Virus record (IMG/VR): IMGVR_UViG_3300023443_000674
Location: 1 to 23,273 of that record
Origin: a virus
Direction: 5' to 3' (one strand)
DNA: 23,273 bases
The translations under genes and the position numbers were made by a program. Shown here one piece after another: positions 2,653 through 9,656 of this stretch; within the stretch, counting starts at the first letter, position 1; each line of letters opens with the position of its first letter. The notes under the pieces are model-generated. The model was not told where the DNA came from. It made no database searches and was given only the letters and a program-made list of their open reading frames with translations.

Positions 2653-3669
2653 TTAGATGAACAAGTAATCAGCAACTGTATCCAGTGTCTGATCAATATA
2701 TTCATTGGATTGAGTCATTGATACCAGTACGTCCCCCTGAGTAGATTCAGAACGTTCCAGTCTCTCTACCCAGAAATCAAACCCTGCTTGATCTGGCGAA
2801 CGACCGAACACTTCTTCATACATATGGGTGACAAATTCAGTACTGCTCACTGTTCCATTTTCGTTAGTGTCAGTGTTGCTAATAAACTCATCTGAATTAA
2901 CAAAGCCTGCAGCCATGCTTGGAAGTGTCTGGTCTCCCCACTCAATCTGATCAGCCCACCACTCAAAACCATTTTTGTCCGGAAGACGGCCTAATGCTCC
3001 CATATAGGTGCGGTAGAGCTGTGCATCCTCCGCGTCTACAACGAAACCTTGAGGACTCCAGATAGCATTGTCATAATTTGAGGTATCCGGATCTATGATA
3101 TAAGCCGTTTCCACCACAGGGGTCTCGTCAACAAGCGTATCGTCAGCAATTATGACCTCATCCACCACTTCATCCACGACAACATCTTGAACTTCCTGAT
3201 TGTCCACTCCTCCTATCAATACCACTCCCGAATCATTCCACGCGTAAGGAGCATTAATTGAAAGGTAAAACCATCCATCATTCTCAGGCATAAAATTTAT
3301 GAGACTGGCTTCATAGGGTTCACTGTAAGCATCTGATCCAGGCTGAGTTCGCATGAGATAACCGTCTGCATCGTAGAGAGAAAGGTCGGGGGACAGCCAA
3401 GACCATCCATTGGGGTTTTGTTGACCAACAATGAAGCTGTAAGTATCGCCTGCCGATAAATAAATTGGGGCTATATCTGTATCATCATCGCGACCAAAAT
3501 TATCTTTGCCACCGATTGTGAAATATCCACTCCACATATAATCAAAATCCCATCCGGGAGTATATTCTCCGTTCATAAAGATTAACTCATTATAGGATTC
3601 TTCCTCTGCTGAAAAAACTAGGAAGACTGCAGCATCTGTATCTGTCCAGCCGTTTACTCTATTGCTCAT
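2653..3669 (-). CDS. PPC-like / DUF4214-domain protein with EF-hand-like loop
   Basis: This acidic 338-residue protein has no signal peptide. Residues about 48-152 look like a bacterial pre-peptidase C-terminal (PPC) beta-sandwich, with YLSAGDTYSF, LSLYDADG and GWFYLSINA. An acidic Val/Asp/Glu linker follows (about 156-188). Two DUF4214-like units lie at about 214-264 (YRTYMGALGRLPDKNGFEWW) and 280-326 (MYEEVFGRSPDQAGFDFW). Between them, D267 to E278 fits a canonical EF-hand loop, with D1, N3, N5, G6, V8 and E12, so calcium binding is likely. DUF4214 is usual in secreted or surface proteins. Here it could be a lysogenic-conversion product or a virion appendage. The ribosome binding site AGGGG lies 8 bases upstream. 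The gene stands alone, convergent to the ejection genes, with a LexA-type box 55 bases before its ATG. Confidence 0.75.
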   Translation of the reverse strand: MSNRVNGWTDTDAAVFLVFSAEEESYNELIFMNGEYTPGWDFDYMWSGYFTIGGKDNFGRDDDTDIAPIYLSAGDTYSFIVGQQNPNGWSWLSPDLSLYDADGYLMRTQPGSDAYSEPYEASLINFMPENDGWFYLSINAPYAWNDSGVVLIGGVDNQEVQDVVVDEVVDEVIIADDTLVDETPVVETAYIIDPDTSNYDNAIWSPQGFVVDAEDAQLYRTYMGALGRLPDKNGFEWWADQIEWGDQTLPSMAAGFVNSDEFISNTDTNENGTVSSTEFVTHMYEEVFGRSPDQAGFDFWVERLERSESTQGDVLVSMTQSNEYIDQTLDTVADYLFI

Positions 3670-3724: not shown

Positions 3725-3744
3725 TACTGTGGTTATTAACAGTA
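3725..3744 (-). promoter_or_regulatory. LexA (SOS) box upstream of the DUF4214 gene
   Basis: The sequence is TACTGT-N8-ACAGTA. Both 6-base arms match the gammaproteobacterial LexA consensus exactly, including CTGT-N8-ACAG, and the spacer GGTTATTA is AT-rich. It lies in the only intergenic gap before the leftward DUF4214 gene, 55 bases upstream of its ATG, and downstream of the terminator that closes the early operon. The natural target is therefore the DUF4214 gene. I could not identify a strong matching -35/-10 pair, so the exact promoter is unresolved. Confidence 0.7.
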
Positions 3745-5930: not shown

Positions 5931-5943
5931 AAGTCCTACAAAA
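5931..5943 (+). repeat. Putative integrase arm-type site 1
   Basis: AAGTCCTACAAAA is the left-most direct copy of the arm repeat, on the P arm left of the tRNA core. Confidence 0.6.
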
Positions 5944-5984
5944 ACCATTCAAACCCGCATGGTTATTGGGGGGTATTTGGGGTA

Positions 5985-5995
5985 TTTTGTAGGAC
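5985..5995 (-). repeat. Putative integrase arm-type site 2, inverted
   Basis: TTTTGTAGGAC is the inverse complement of the repeat at 5931-5943 and shares its CCTACA form. It lies about 40 bases left of the core. Confidence 0.6.
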
Positions 5996-6033
5996 AAAAT
6001 GGCTTGAAAGCCGCGTATTTCCTCAATAGCATC

Positions 6034-6083
6034 CCTGGCTACGAACCAGGGGGTCGCAGATTCGAATTCTGCCGGGCGCACCA
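6034..6083 (+). other. 3' half of tRNA-Arg(ACG): attachment core
   Basis: The sequence contains anticodon stem CCTGG/CCAGG around the loop CTACGAA (anticodon ACG at 6041-6043), T arm GCAGA-TTCGAAT-TCTGC at 6056-6072, the 3' acceptor strand CGGGCGC at 6073-6079, a discriminator A and an encoded CCA at 6081-6083. The 5' acceptor strand and D arm are absent, so this is not a working tRNA gene. It is the segment that restores the host tRNA gene after integration. Identity with the host gene may begin a few bases earlier, around 6028. Confidence 0.85.
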
Positions 6084-6113
6084 TATAAGATACTGAATTA
6101 TAAAGATTTAATT

Positions 6114-6143
6114 TTAACATACTGGATATATCCACAGTATGAG
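6114..6143 (+). promoter_or_regulatory. LexA-box promoter of the repressor paralogue
   Basis: TTAACA at 6114-6119 (5 of 6 to the -35 consensus) and TATGAG at 6138-6143 (4 of 6 to the -10) are 18 bases apart. The gap is filled by TACTGG-ATATATCC-ACAGTA at 6120-6139. That differs from the LexA consensus arms at one arm base and has an AT-rich centre. The outer arms CATACTG and CAGTATG form a perfect inverted repeat, as do the inner bases GGATATATCC. LexA occupying the space between -35 and -10 is a standard SOS promoter design. The start of the downstream gene is 51 bases away. Confidence 0.6.
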
Positions 6144-6150
6144 TTTTAGA

Positions 6151-6175
6151 AAGTCCAACAAAAAGTCCAACAAAA
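6151..6175 (+). repeat. Tandem putative integrase arm-type sites 3 and 4
   Basis: Two direct copies of AAGTCCAACAAAA start at 6151 and 6163, exactly 12 bases apart. They lie on the P' side of the core and just downstream of the LexA-box promoter, so integrase binding could also affect transcription of the next gene. Confidence 0.65.
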
Positions 6176-6190
6176 ATGAAGAGGTAATAC

Positions 6191-6529
6191 ATGTCTAATC
6201 CTAAGTTAGCTACTTTTATTGATCGTCTTGAGGCAGTGATGCTTGACGCAGGCGTAGAGCCAGAACAGTTAAAAGCCACAATTTGTGCAATATGCGACAT
6301 ACCGTCAGTGGATGATTGGTTTAGTGGTTTCACGCAATCTCCCCCCGCTGAGAATGTTGCTGCTCTTTCTGTCTATTTCAAATCTGATTGTGTTTGGCTG
6401 ATCACTGGTAAATACTCTAGCGAACAAGTCGTATGTGACCGTCATACTGACGAGGTATTTTCTTGCACGTTGCTTAACCAAAGAATGGAAGCTAAAGAGC
6501 TGAAAGTCATACGAAATTATGAGGACTAG
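6191..6529 (+). CDS. Repressor paralogue, candidate LexA-controlled antirepressor
   Basis: A 112-residue protein. Residues about 7-80 align by eye with the phage repressor encoded at 9264-9656: RLEAVMLDAGV against RIEQLILEHGV, then the shared WF.G, and VYFKSDCVWLITGK against DHFHADPVWLLWGE. The segment that holds the recognition helix in the repressor (GLSKQALSKWF) is shortened and altered here (DIPSVDDWF), so normal DNA binding is doubtful. The ribosome binding site GAGGT lies 5 bases before the ATG. A LexA-box promoter precedes it. I infer that it could interact with the repressor and antagonise it after DNA damage. An independent regulator of integration is the alternative. Confidence 0.6.
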   Translation: MSNPKLATFIDRLEAVMLDAGVEPEQLKATICAICDIPSVDDWFSGFTQSPPAENVAALSVYFKSDCVWLITGKYSSEQVVCDRHTDEVFSCTLLNQRMEAKELKVIRNYED

Positions 6530-6562: not shown

Positions 6563-6796
6563 ATGAAAAAGAAGGCCACTCGAAAAGAAACTGCGGAATG
6601 GATGGCTAATCATGAAATGCTCACTTTGACTGAAATAGCATTGATATTGGGCGGCTTTAATCCGGCTGACATAGAAGTGGATAAAGACGGAAATCCAAAT
6701 CTATCCTCAGAAAAAAGTAAAATAAAATATAAAGAAGCTAGAGAGGAGGCTCTAGCGGCGGTCAACTCAGGAGAGTTAGGTTTCACTAATCGGTAG
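6563..6796 (+). CDS. Hypothetical 77-aa protein, possible small regulator
   Basis: AGGAG precedes the ATG by 9 bases. Residues 8-40 (ETAEWMANHEMLTLTEIALILGGFNPADIEVDKDGNP) resemble the short helical segment 'LTL.EAA.LL.G.DP' common in uncharacterised phage and prophage proteins, and the remainder is a charged helix. I cannot assign a function. It lies 33 bases after the repressor paralogue, probably on the same SOS-regulated transcript, and its 3' end overlaps the convergent integrase gene by 11 bases. Excisionase is possible from position but has no motif support. Confidence 0.6.
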   Translation: MKKKATRKETAEWMANHEMLTLTEIALILGGFNPADIEVDKDGNPNLSSEKSKIKYKEAREEALAAVNSGELGFTNR

Positions 6797-7838
6797 CTCC
6801 TATCTTCCGTAGCTTCCGGTTATAAACCTTGTGCATAAGAGGGGACTTATGACCGGCAAACTGTTCACCCTTCATATCTGAATAGCCCTTGGCCTTGAGA
6901 TCGTGGAAGGTGAAATGCTCACCACCTTGAGCCTCAACCTTGTCCATCAATCTACGCCATGCACTTTTAAAGCCAGACTCGTTGATAGGCTGTCCACGTT
7001 TGTTGTGGATTAGGTAGGCACCAGCTATCGGTGCAGGGGCACTACTATGGAGCGCTCTCGCAAAGCTGACAGCGCCCTCCAGTCGTTTCGTCCAGGTTGT
7101 AATTTCCCCCTCTGAGCCCTTATTCCTTGTGAGCGATATACCCTCCCTTCCAATATGTTTGTGGGTAAGACCCGCAATTTCTTTGCGTCTAGCCCGACAG
7201 AGGACAGCCAACTCCATGAAGGCAGCGATGTAAGGCGACCCTCCTTCCATTGCATAGCGGATAGCAACTGTATATTCATCGTCCGTAACATAACGTGTCC
7301 TCGGTTCCTCTTTGTTCAGCTTGACCTTCTCGCAAGGGTTATCCCTTACAGCGTCATAACGCTCTCTAGCCCAGTTGAAGGCAGATTTTAAATACTGGAT
7401 ATGGCGATTAGCGGCTACAGGTGCATGATCACCATTCGCTTTTCTGTAGTTGTCCAAGTATCCACGTATGGTTGTACGCTTGATCTTGGCATAGGGCATA
7501 TCACCAAACTTCCTACGGCGTACTACAGGGTAGGATAGGAGTTTGAGGCGGTATGCCTGATAATCTATCTGGGTTCTTGGGACCAATCCCTGGAACTGGG
7601 TGGAGTCGTGGTATACGCTCAGAAGCCATGAGAGCGTGTCTGTGGCTTGATCAGTGACCCGTAGGTAGTTCTCCCAGATTTGGGCATCTGTGGCTGGAGC
7701 CTTGCACAGTACTATCTCTTTAGCGCGTAGATAGCGGCCATCCACTTTGCCCAGATATTCCTTCCAGACAATGCGACCTTTTGACTCGTAAACATTTTTG
7801 GGCCACTTATTTTTACTGTGGGATCTCTTAGCGCCCAT
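6786..7838 (-). CDS. int: Tyrosine recombinase integrase
   Basis: A 350-residue site-specific recombinase that would join attP to the host tRNA-Arg gene. Residues 1-60 form the basic N-terminal part (likely arm-binding), about 62-165 the core-binding domain, and about 180-345 the catalytic domain. Catalytic residues visible are R217 in CRARRKEI, K240 in RNKGSEG, H312 in FHDLKAKG, H330 in FAGHKS and nucleophile Y339 in VYNRK. The second active-site arginine of the HxxR motif is replaced by lysine (K315), a variant I associate with phage integrases carrying HDLKAKG. GGGA lies 8 bases before the ATG, and the start overlaps the upstream DUF4224 gene by 11 bases. Confidence 0.93.
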   Translation of the reverse strand: MGAKRSHSKNKWPKNVYESKGRIVWKEYLGKVDGRYLRAKEIVLCKAPATDAQIWENYLRVTDQATDTLSWLLSVYHDSTQFQGLVPRTQIDYQAYRLKLLSYPVVRRRKFGDMPYAKIKRTTIRGYLDNYRKANGDHAPVAANRHIQYLKSAFNWARERYDAVRDNPCEKVKLNKEEPRTRYVTDDEYTVAIRYAMEGGSPYIAAFMELAVLCRARRKEIAGLTHKHIGREGISLTRNKGSEGEITTWTKRLEGAVSFARALHSSAPAPIAGAYLIHNKRGQPINESGFKSAWRRLMDKVEAQGGEHFTFHDLKAKGYSDMKGEQFAGHKSPLMHKVYNRKLRKIGATD

Positions 7839-8016
7839 GATCTAGATCCCAGTCGTTTTCTTCATTCAGGCTAGCATCTATCTGGGTAAGAGTAGTCAGG
7901 GGTTGGCCGCCTTTGCCTTTGCGCCACCTGATACCGCTATCCTCCAACCAAGCAATTATCCGGGCTTCTTGGTCAAAGCCGGTATATTCCTTCAGCGCTT
8001 GTAGGTTGTAGAGCAT
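7828..8016 (-). CDS. DUF4224 family protein, possible recombination directionality factor
   Basis: A 62-residue protein. NLQALKEYTGFDQEARIIAWLEDSGIRW followed by a basic GKGGQP matches the DUF4224 pattern: a short helix-turn-helix-like protein that usually lies directly upstream of phage integrases. I chose ATG 8016, preceded by a GGA, because the family begins just before this LxxLxxxTG motif. A longer form would need a TTG at 8055. It overlaps the integrase start by 11 bases, so both are translated from one leftward mRNA. An excisionase-like or integrase-regulating role is inferred from position. Confidence 0.7.
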   Translation of the reverse strand: MLYNLQALKEYTGFDQEARIIAWLEDSGIRWRKGKGGQPLTTLTQIDASLNEENDWDLDHGR

Positions 8017-8046
8017 GGGTCCAGTAAACCAAAGTGGACTCAGGTA

Positions 8047-8062
8047 GTCAAACAAATTTGAC
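8047..8062. promoter_or_regulatory. Palindrome upstream of the integrase operon
   Basis: GTCAAA and TTTGAC are perfect 6-base arms around CAAA, about 31 bases upstream of the DUF4224 ATG. On the minus strand, TATAGT at 8066-8061 resembles a -10 element and overlaps one arm. No good -35 is visible. An operator for the integrase operon is plausible. Confidence 0.35.
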
Positions 8063-8648: not shown

Positions 8649-9227
8649 CTAGTAGGCTCGGTCTATTACGTCTTTTGCTTGTTCGGTAATCCCGCAATGA
8701 TGTGCTGGAGTAATACCAGGGCATCCAGATGCGTGCATGAGTTCTGCTTGTGAGATATCGACATCCTCATCGTCTCGGTCATCTACATATTCGTGGTCGT
8801 TGTGATCTAATCCGTAACAGTGACCTAATTCATGTAAAACCAACATGTACTTGAAGGCAGCAGATTTGTTGTTCGCATTCGTACCTATATTTATGGAGCA
8901 CTCAATGTCATTACTTCGATTGACTGAGGCGCAGGCAAAGCCGGGTATACAGGCACTCGGCATTTGGTCATCATCTTGGAAAATCCTAACGCGCTCAAAG
9001 CCTGCATCAATCATGACAGGGTTGATATCTGCTTCTTCGGCCCAGTCATTGACGGCTGATATGACAACATTCGTCCAGTAGCCGGGTAGTGTTTCCTCGC
9101 TGTTTGTCGTGATGGCTACACCTAGTGACGAAGTGGTAGCTCTGCCCGCCGAGAGATTCCAGTGCTGCACTGCGAAAGCAGGGGTAGAAATGGGGATTAG
9201 TAGGCTGGCAAGTATAAGTATTTTCAT
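8649..9227 (-). CDS. Secreted metzincin (matrixin-like) zinc metalloprotease
   Basis: A 192-residue protein. MKILILASLLIPISTPAFA is a signal peptide with cleavage predicted after A19. HELGHCYGLDH at residues 132-142 is the complete metzincin zinc motif HExxHxxGxxH, with E133 as general base. M164 in ELMHASG is a good Met-turn. Six cysteines (93, 99, 110, 137, 169, 178) suggest disulfides outside the cytoplasm. The small size fits a catalytic domain without a clear long propeptide. AGAGGAAA precedes the ATG. It starts 36 bases after the repressor stop with no terminator visible, so it should be expressed in the lysogen. The substrate is unknown. Confidence 0.85.
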   Translation of the reverse strand: MKILILASLLIPISTPAFAVQHWNLSAGRATTSSLGVAITTNSEETLPGYWTNVVISAVNDWAEEADINPVMIDAGFERVRIFQDDDQMPSACIPGFACASVNRSNDIECSINIGTNANNKSAAFKYMLVLHELGHCYGLDHNDHEYVDDRDDEDVDISQAELMHASGCPGITPAHHCGITEQAKDVIDRAY

Positions 9228-9263: not shown

Positions 9264-9656
9264 TTATGCCAGTTTGAGATCGGGCGGCATATATCCATAG
9301 AAGTGGGCCGTTTGAATACTCCCTACATTAACTGGAACTCCCTGATCCAGATGCTCTCCTATGGCTTGTTTCCGCTGCTCATCATACTGAGTAGATGTTT
9401 CCCCCCATAGAAGCCAAACCGGATCAGCATGGAAATGGTCCGTTATAGCTTTAATGTGGTCAACAGTAGGAGTAGCCGTATCGCCATTAAACCATTTACT
9501 CAAGGCTTGCTTGCTAAGGCCAGTAATTTCCGTAATTTTGCTTCTTACCTTATCGGGTGGTACTCCGTGTTCAAGTATTAGCTGTTCAATCCGCTGCGTG
9601 ATTGGCCCGGGAATGGTAGTTGAATCAGTCATTTTTAATACCGCTTTGTTAGTCAC
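9264..9656 (-). CDS. Short phage repressor (CI-like, no cleavage domain)
   Basis: A helix-turn-helix protein with RIEQLILEHGV and ITGLSKQALSKWFNGDTATPTVDHIKAITDHFHADPVWLLWG. The helix-turn-helix is ITEITGLSKQALSKWFNG. The remaining tail is about 45 residues, so there is no room for the S24/LexA-type self-cleavage domain of lambda CI. It lies divergent to a Cro-like gene, the normal position of the lysogeny repressor. The start is either GTG 9656, with AAGGA about 10 bases upstream (130 residues), or ATG 9632 (122 residues) with a weaker site. It is the first gene of the unit encoding the metzincin and the exported protein. A paralogue lies at 6191-6529. Confidence 0.8.
   Translation of the reverse strand: MTNKAVLKMTDSTTIPGPITQRIEQLILEHGVPPDKVRSKITEITGLSKQALSKWFNGDTATPTVDHIKAITDHFHADPVWLLWGETSTQYDEQRKQAIGEHLDQGVPVNVGSIQTAHFYGYMPPDLKLA

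Follow-up and report, generated by a model that had tools for sequence, protein, structure and literature searches.

Organization of the locus

The window, by which is meant the whole stretch of 23,273 bases that was analysed, displays the gene order of a lambda-like temperate phage. Its principal features are the following:

6114..6143, plus strand: putative sigma-70 promoter (-35 TTAACA at 6114-6119, -10 TATGAG at 6138-6143, spacer 18)
6120..6139, plus strand: LexA (SOS) box TACTGGATATATCCACAGTA, position-matrix score 21.7 bits, matching the search pattern with one mismatch
6180..6185, plus strand: ribosome-binding site AGAGGT of the small gene, read from the sequence
6191..6529, plus strand: the small gene, a candidate SOS antirepressor of 112 aa, with a CI/C2-type helix-turn-helix (HTH) of shortened turn and a poorly modelled tail
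6563..6796, plus strand: 77-aa gene, second in the presumed SOS operon, its end overlapping the end of int
6786..7838, minus strand: tyrosine integrase (int; phrog_1 E 8.8e-41, PF00589)
7828..8055, minus strand: excisionase (xis; phrog_1266 E 8.3e-7)
9264..9656, minus strand: prophage repressor without a self-cleavage domain, 130 aa
9733..9921, plus strand: Cro, divergent from the repressor (PF14549 P22_Cro, E 5.9e-15)

Genes for replication, NinB and NinG follow beyond Cro, and the other side of the window carries a recombination module that includes a single-strand binding protein. No near DNA relative of the window was found in the phage collection and no relatives of int in viral_contigs, and a search for the host with the phage's tRNA sequence as query found none in genome_contigs or viral_contigs.

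An earlier reading of this DNA, made from the sequence only, had described the repressor as devoid of a self-cleavage domain; domain searches agree, finding HTH_3 above its cut-off and no peptidase domain. Directly downstream of the repressor (8649-9227, minus strand) lies a metzincin-like gene with an HExxHxxGxxH motif and a signal-peptide-like start. Because of that start, and because no match to an ImmA-type family was found, its product is probably exported, possibly as a protease carried as a lysogeny gene; an ImmA-like protease route acting through this gene was considered and rejected for the same two reasons.

The 112-aa frame of the small gene is intact, and is the sole one of six with coding-like codon use over 6191-6529. 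Its ATG at 6191 stands 51 bases downstream of the LexA box, as had been proposed. The 77-aa gene starts 33 bases after the small gene, with a strong ribosome-binding site, and has no relatives in phages or viral_contigs. Single-protein scans for orthologues of the small gene found none in viral_contigs, phages (where only CI repressors were returned) or plasmids, making its product a singleton across all collections searched.

A LexA-type box in a putative promoter inside attP

The sequence-only reading had recognized a LexA box, TACTGG-N8-ACAGTA, at 6120-6139, and had proposed that it be scored with a LexA position matrix. The box (core CTGG-N8-ACAG) is of the gammaproteobacterial kind, CTGT-N8-ACAG-like and overlapping a promoter, and its score of 21.7 bits, obtained with a matrix of 16 E. 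coli boxes that may not represent the motif of the host, falls inside the range of those 16 sites (12.9-25.5). None of 400 Markov shuffles of the window reached that score; the next site in the window, which is not LexA-like, stands at 9.3 (a second box at 3725-3744 aside), and about 600 kb of other phage DNA yielded few sites of 17 bits or more. When placed on a common scale, the two boxes of the window score 22.5 and 17.8, the annotated tum box of phage 186 scores 27.6, a site of Gifsy-1 scores 23.2, and two sites of N15 score 24.3 and 21.1. By these measures the element at 6120-6139 is a LexA-type box, and it would probably be bound by LexA. It had been described as filling the space between TTAACA and TATGAG; that placement is correct, except that the box does not end before the -10 hexamer but covers its first two bases. 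The promoter at 6114-6143 is not listed by a sigma-70 consensus scan, its hexamers being plausible but weak and its -10 weak.

Across 5932-6174, a tRNA-derived core of 56 bases is flanked on each side by two copies of AGTCCNACAAA, four in all:

5932..5942, plus strand: putative arm-type site AGTCCTACAAA (P arm)
5985..5995, minus strand: putative arm-type site, inverted (P arm)
6028..6083, plus strand: putative attP core, the 3' part of a tRNA-Arg(ACG) up to CCA (alignment to E. coli argQ; weak Rfam tRNA match)
6152..6162, plus strand: putative arm-type site AGTCCAACAAA (P' arm), within the small gene's leader
6164..6174, plus strand: putative arm-type site AGTCCAACAAA (P' arm)

By analogy to the lambda integrase family, this arrangement would correspond to the anatomy of an attP with its arm-type sites. 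The LexA promoter of the small gene lies within it, between the core and the right arm sites. Since that promoter is outside the tRNA core, it would be expected to survive integration intact, and would then be found 36 bases behind the host tRNA-Arg gene. No terminator was detected between the tRNA end of attP and the small gene, so that transcription started at the host tRNA-Arg promoter could run on into the small gene and express it in a lysogen; this speaks against tight control, unless such transcription is halted by LexA or Rho. The placement of the promoter inside attP, the separate xis and the second LexA box had all been missing from the sequence-only reading.

A repressor-type domain with a damaged helix-turn-helix

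Residues 9-73 of the small protein are homologous to the N-terminal domain of CI/C2-type repressors. Its proposed relationship to the repressor of the window is upheld by a pairwise identity of 30% over 69 aa (E 1e-14); identity is 39% to the repressor of a phage designated L003, and 35-39% to the CI repressors of Pseudomonas phages (E ~3e-7 against the whole phage collection). An alignment scan found Pseudomonas-like CI repressors and, as the sole exception, a phage whose repressor is short (L003/L007). The structural comparison that had been suggested for the two proteins likewise favours a relationship: the model of the small protein consists of five helices, is confident for residues 9-72 only (mean pLDDT 68), and has the C2 repressor of phage P22 as its best PDB match (probability 1.00, TM-score 0.75 by target, E 0.024), which points to a fold of the repressor N-terminal type. 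Nothing in that structure search passes E 0.001, as is usual for a domain so small.

The turn of the HTH is two residues shorter in the small protein than in its relatives. Among the cleavable relatives, the segment spanning turn and recognition helix follows a pattern like G-[IV]-x-x-P-[AS]-V-x-x-W-[FI]-S-G-K-T-K, a length that both short repressors share; the corresponding segment of the small protein is D-I-P-S-V-D-D-W-F-S-G-F-T-Q, in which the lysines are gone, the GKTK of most relatives has become GFTQ, and the conserved basic residues have been lost. Helix 3 is modelled with 4 residues in the small protein versus 8 in the window repressor. The small protein has a pI of 4.5, and the net charge of its domain is -7, where the window repressor has -1 and the cleavable relatives have between +3 and +6. 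The degraded recognition helix that had been described earlier is therefore evident in the deleted turn, the GKTK replacement and the shortened helix 3, and the intact HTH of CI/C2-type repressors is absent. Considering the lost turn residues, the halving of the modelled recognition helix and the acidic charge, we infer that the small protein does not bind DNA specifically.

The further suggestion that the small gene had arisen by duplication of the window repressor did not find support. In a tree of repressor relatives (67 columns only), the window repressor and the L003 repressor, which are 47% identical, form a clade (96/93) with the small protein outside, so that the closest relative of the small protein is not the repressor encoded beside it. 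Forcing the small protein into a position next to the window repressor is 7.1 log units worse and is marginally rejected (p-AU 0.047). Because the window repressor groups with that of L003 to its exclusion, the small gene does not appear to be a recent duplicate, and duplication within this phage is, by a marginal test, not favoured. No LexA box was found in the L003 phage.

A candidate SOS-controlled antirepressor

We consider it slightly more probable than its negation that 6191-6529 encodes an SOS-controlled antirepressor of this temperate, lambda-organized phage. While the phage is dormant as a prophage, the small gene would be kept off by host LexA sitting on the box at 6120-6139, and DNA damage would remove LexA and allow the small protein to be made. 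Its CI/C2-type domain, which keeps the framework of helices 1, 2, 4 and 5, would be unable to read DNA; the protein would most likely bind the 130-aa non-cleavable repressor, either by pairing with it in mixed dimers or by masking the surface with which the repressor reads DNA. The repressor would then leave its operators, cro and the lytic genes would be expressed, and the separately encoded Int and Xis would excise the prophage.

The expectation that such a device should exist follows from the repressor itself, which lacks a cleavage domain and so cannot be inactivated by RecA in the fashion of lambda, and which would thus be expected to respond to SOS by some other route. Prophages of the Gifsy, 186 and N15 types, which also possess non-cleavable repressors, employ LexA-controlled antirepressors (PMC3121763). 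Furthermore, the Mor protein of TP901-1 is an HTH-motif protein with no DNA binding of its own, and the complex that it forms prevents CI from binding both half-sites (PMC11149083), which establishes that CI can be disabled through complex formation by an HTH protein unable to bind DNA alone.

Several observations were counted in favour of the antirepressor reading: (i) the LexA box is far beyond chance, with a score like those of known SOS-controlled prophages; (ii) the product has a repressor fold with a specifically damaged HTH; and (iii) the coding frame is intact, and its promoter would survive integration. Counted against it were: (i) that the small protein is not the closest relative of its would-be target; (ii) that no orthologue is found in viral_contigs, phages or plasmids; and (iii) that read-through from tRNA-Arg may occur in the lysogen. 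The earlier proposal of an SOS antirepressor hence stands as the best reading, on the strength of the box, the non-cleavable repressor and an apparently DNA-blind repressor fold, and has been parted from the duplication with which it was first put forward.

A more specific version of the mechanism can be offered as a tentative suggestion, which we regard as rather doubtful in its entirety: a repressor N-terminal domain would have been made dominant-negative by the two-residue deletion in its HTH turn and put under LexA control inside attP, damage would be turned into induction by way of mixed dimers, and recombination might also be restrained by LexA seated in the P' arm until that same damage signal arrives.

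Alternative explanations

The stretch of the small protein that contains the HTH is identical to that of cleavable Pseudomonas phage CI repressors at 8 of 13 positions, versus 4 of 13 for the window repressor. That resemblance, together with the known action of some antirepressors upon non-cognate repressors (PMC3121763), would suit a small SOS-controlled protein that is aimed elsewhere (at a host regulator, or at a repressor belonging to another prophage or to a superinfecting phage), with local induction occurring by another route. Such an assignment appears unlikely, given that no further candidate for SOS induction of the non-cleavable repressor was found in the window, and that the only other gene under a LexA box, which encodes a DUF4214 protein, has a product that does not resemble a regulator.

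The loss of HTH residues, the lack of orthologues and the poorly modelled tail might also be understood if the small gene were a decaying copy of a repressor gene that retains a LexA box and has no present role, an explanation that is open to consideration because only one sequence is known. The intact frame, the ribosome-binding site, the coding-like codon use, the near-consensus LexA box and the preserved framework of the domain all argue against decay, and we consider it improbable.

Fractionally less probable again is a role for the small protein as an SOS-induced regulator of recombination, or as a Cro-like DNA-binding regulator, that acts at attP in the manner of Apl of phage 186 or Cox of P2. 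The promoter and leader of the small gene do lie within attP, and Apl is an HTH protein that serves as both excisionase and repressor and binds attP (phage 186 annotation). An Apl- or Cox-like assignment would fit a phage without another excisionase, whereas here a separate xis (7828-8055) adjoins int and matches an excisionase family, which makes it unlikely that the small gene encodes that function; a shortened recognition helix in a strongly acidic domain further argues against any DNA-binding regulator.

Least credible by far is that the box primarily serves attP, with LexA between the core and the P' arm hindering the integrase complex until SOS frees excision and the gene being secondary: the box does fall between the core end (6083) and the arm sites at 6152 and 6164, but it coincides with a promoter whose downstream gene, 51 bp away, is intact, which is where LexA boxes are usually located, and a limited literature search found no precedent. 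A direct role of LexA at attP in addition to the antirepressor gene is possible.

Comparison with known antirepressors

As a candidate antirepressor, the small protein may be compared with the Gifsy antirepressors of Salmonella (GfoA, GfhA and GftA), which are likewise small, SOS-controlled and encoded outside of the immunity region; like theirs, its proposed action is the inactivation of a lambdoid repressor that is short and non-cleavable. It differs in being a repressor-type HTH domain and in being encoded at attP rather than beside dinI. Phage 186 shares with the window a LexA box placed over an antirepressor promoter, whereas Tum is a protein of 146 aa with a DinI-like half (PMC3121763) that displays no similarity to the small protein, and p95/tum lies far from attP (phage 186 annotation). 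AntC of N15 also belongs to the SOS regulon, and the Rem and DicA proteins of Qin similarly form a pair of antirepressor and non-cleavable repressor; the window repressor is weakly similar to DicA, whereas Rem has no credible similarity to the small protein. Mor of TP901-1 is an HTH protein that disables CI through a complex (PMC11149083), as the small protein is presumed to do; it differs in being expressed from the lytic promoter in the position of cro and in not being under LexA, while the phage described here has a separate Cro.

Translated searches (tblastn) with the small protein gave no credible match in the regulatory stretches of Gifsy-1 (limited to 36601-41500), 186, N15 or Qin, and no significant similarity was found in the TP901-1 switch region. 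N15 did give a match of 37 aa, which was rejected as an antirepressor and ascribed to chance, since it coincides with the beginning of a DNA methyltransferase frame. Judged by such comparisons, the small protein is outside of the GfoA, Tum, AntC, Rem and Mor families and has no similarity to known antirepressors (GfoA, Tum, AntC), although it may work as one of those proteins does; the repressor that it would act upon does resemble the partners of GfoA, Tum and AntC, being a protein of 130 aa with HTH_3 only and no self-cleavage domain. The repressors of the CI/C2 type (P22 C2, 434 and the Pseudomonas phage CI proteins) have the same five-helix fold, at 30-39% identity over 64-75 aa, and are distinguished from the small protein by its two missing turn residues, its lost basic residues and its lack of a C-terminal domain.

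Short repressors that resist cleavage are common among prophages and, to our knowledge, few of the means by which such prophages sense DNA damage are known outside of Gifsy, 186 and N15. If the antirepressor reading is true, then a simple evolutionary route to a damage sensor would consist of breaking the DNA-reading helix of a repressor domain and adding a LexA box. It would also supply a searchable signature, namely a short, HTH-defective relative of CI behind a LexA box and outside of the immunity region.

Other LexA boxes in the window and near att sites

A further LexA box in the window precedes a gene of the accessory kind:

2653-3669, minus strand: DUF4214 gene, 338 aa, with the second LexA box upstream
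3725..3744, minus strand: second LexA box TACTGTTAATAACCACAGTA (matrix score 16.75, expected 0.015 per window)

This second box sits behind a terminator-like inverted repeat, and the DUF4214 gene is a candidate SOS-controlled accessory gene.

A recurrence search for LexA boxes located just after tRNA-derived att sites returned 31 matches, none of which precedes a small repressor-like gene, and about half of which correspond to the 3' region of a tRNA-Pro that carries a terminator of its own. In many viral contigs (L060, L061, L063, L064, L066, L070, L072, L073, L075, L077, L080, L082, L083 and L085), a terminator follows the 3' end of tRNA-Pro, and between them, at constant spacing from the tRNA, stands a conserved palindrome that is LexA-like, CTGTAT-N6-ACAG; that palindrome may be either a LexA site or part of the tRNA 3' region. 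In phage mEp390 (L054, 3987-4926), the region beyond int and attP contains a HumD-like gene as well as a LexA box, scoring 23.0, ahead of a DinI-like gene, a layout which indicates that SOS genes near attP occur in a lambdoid phage as well.
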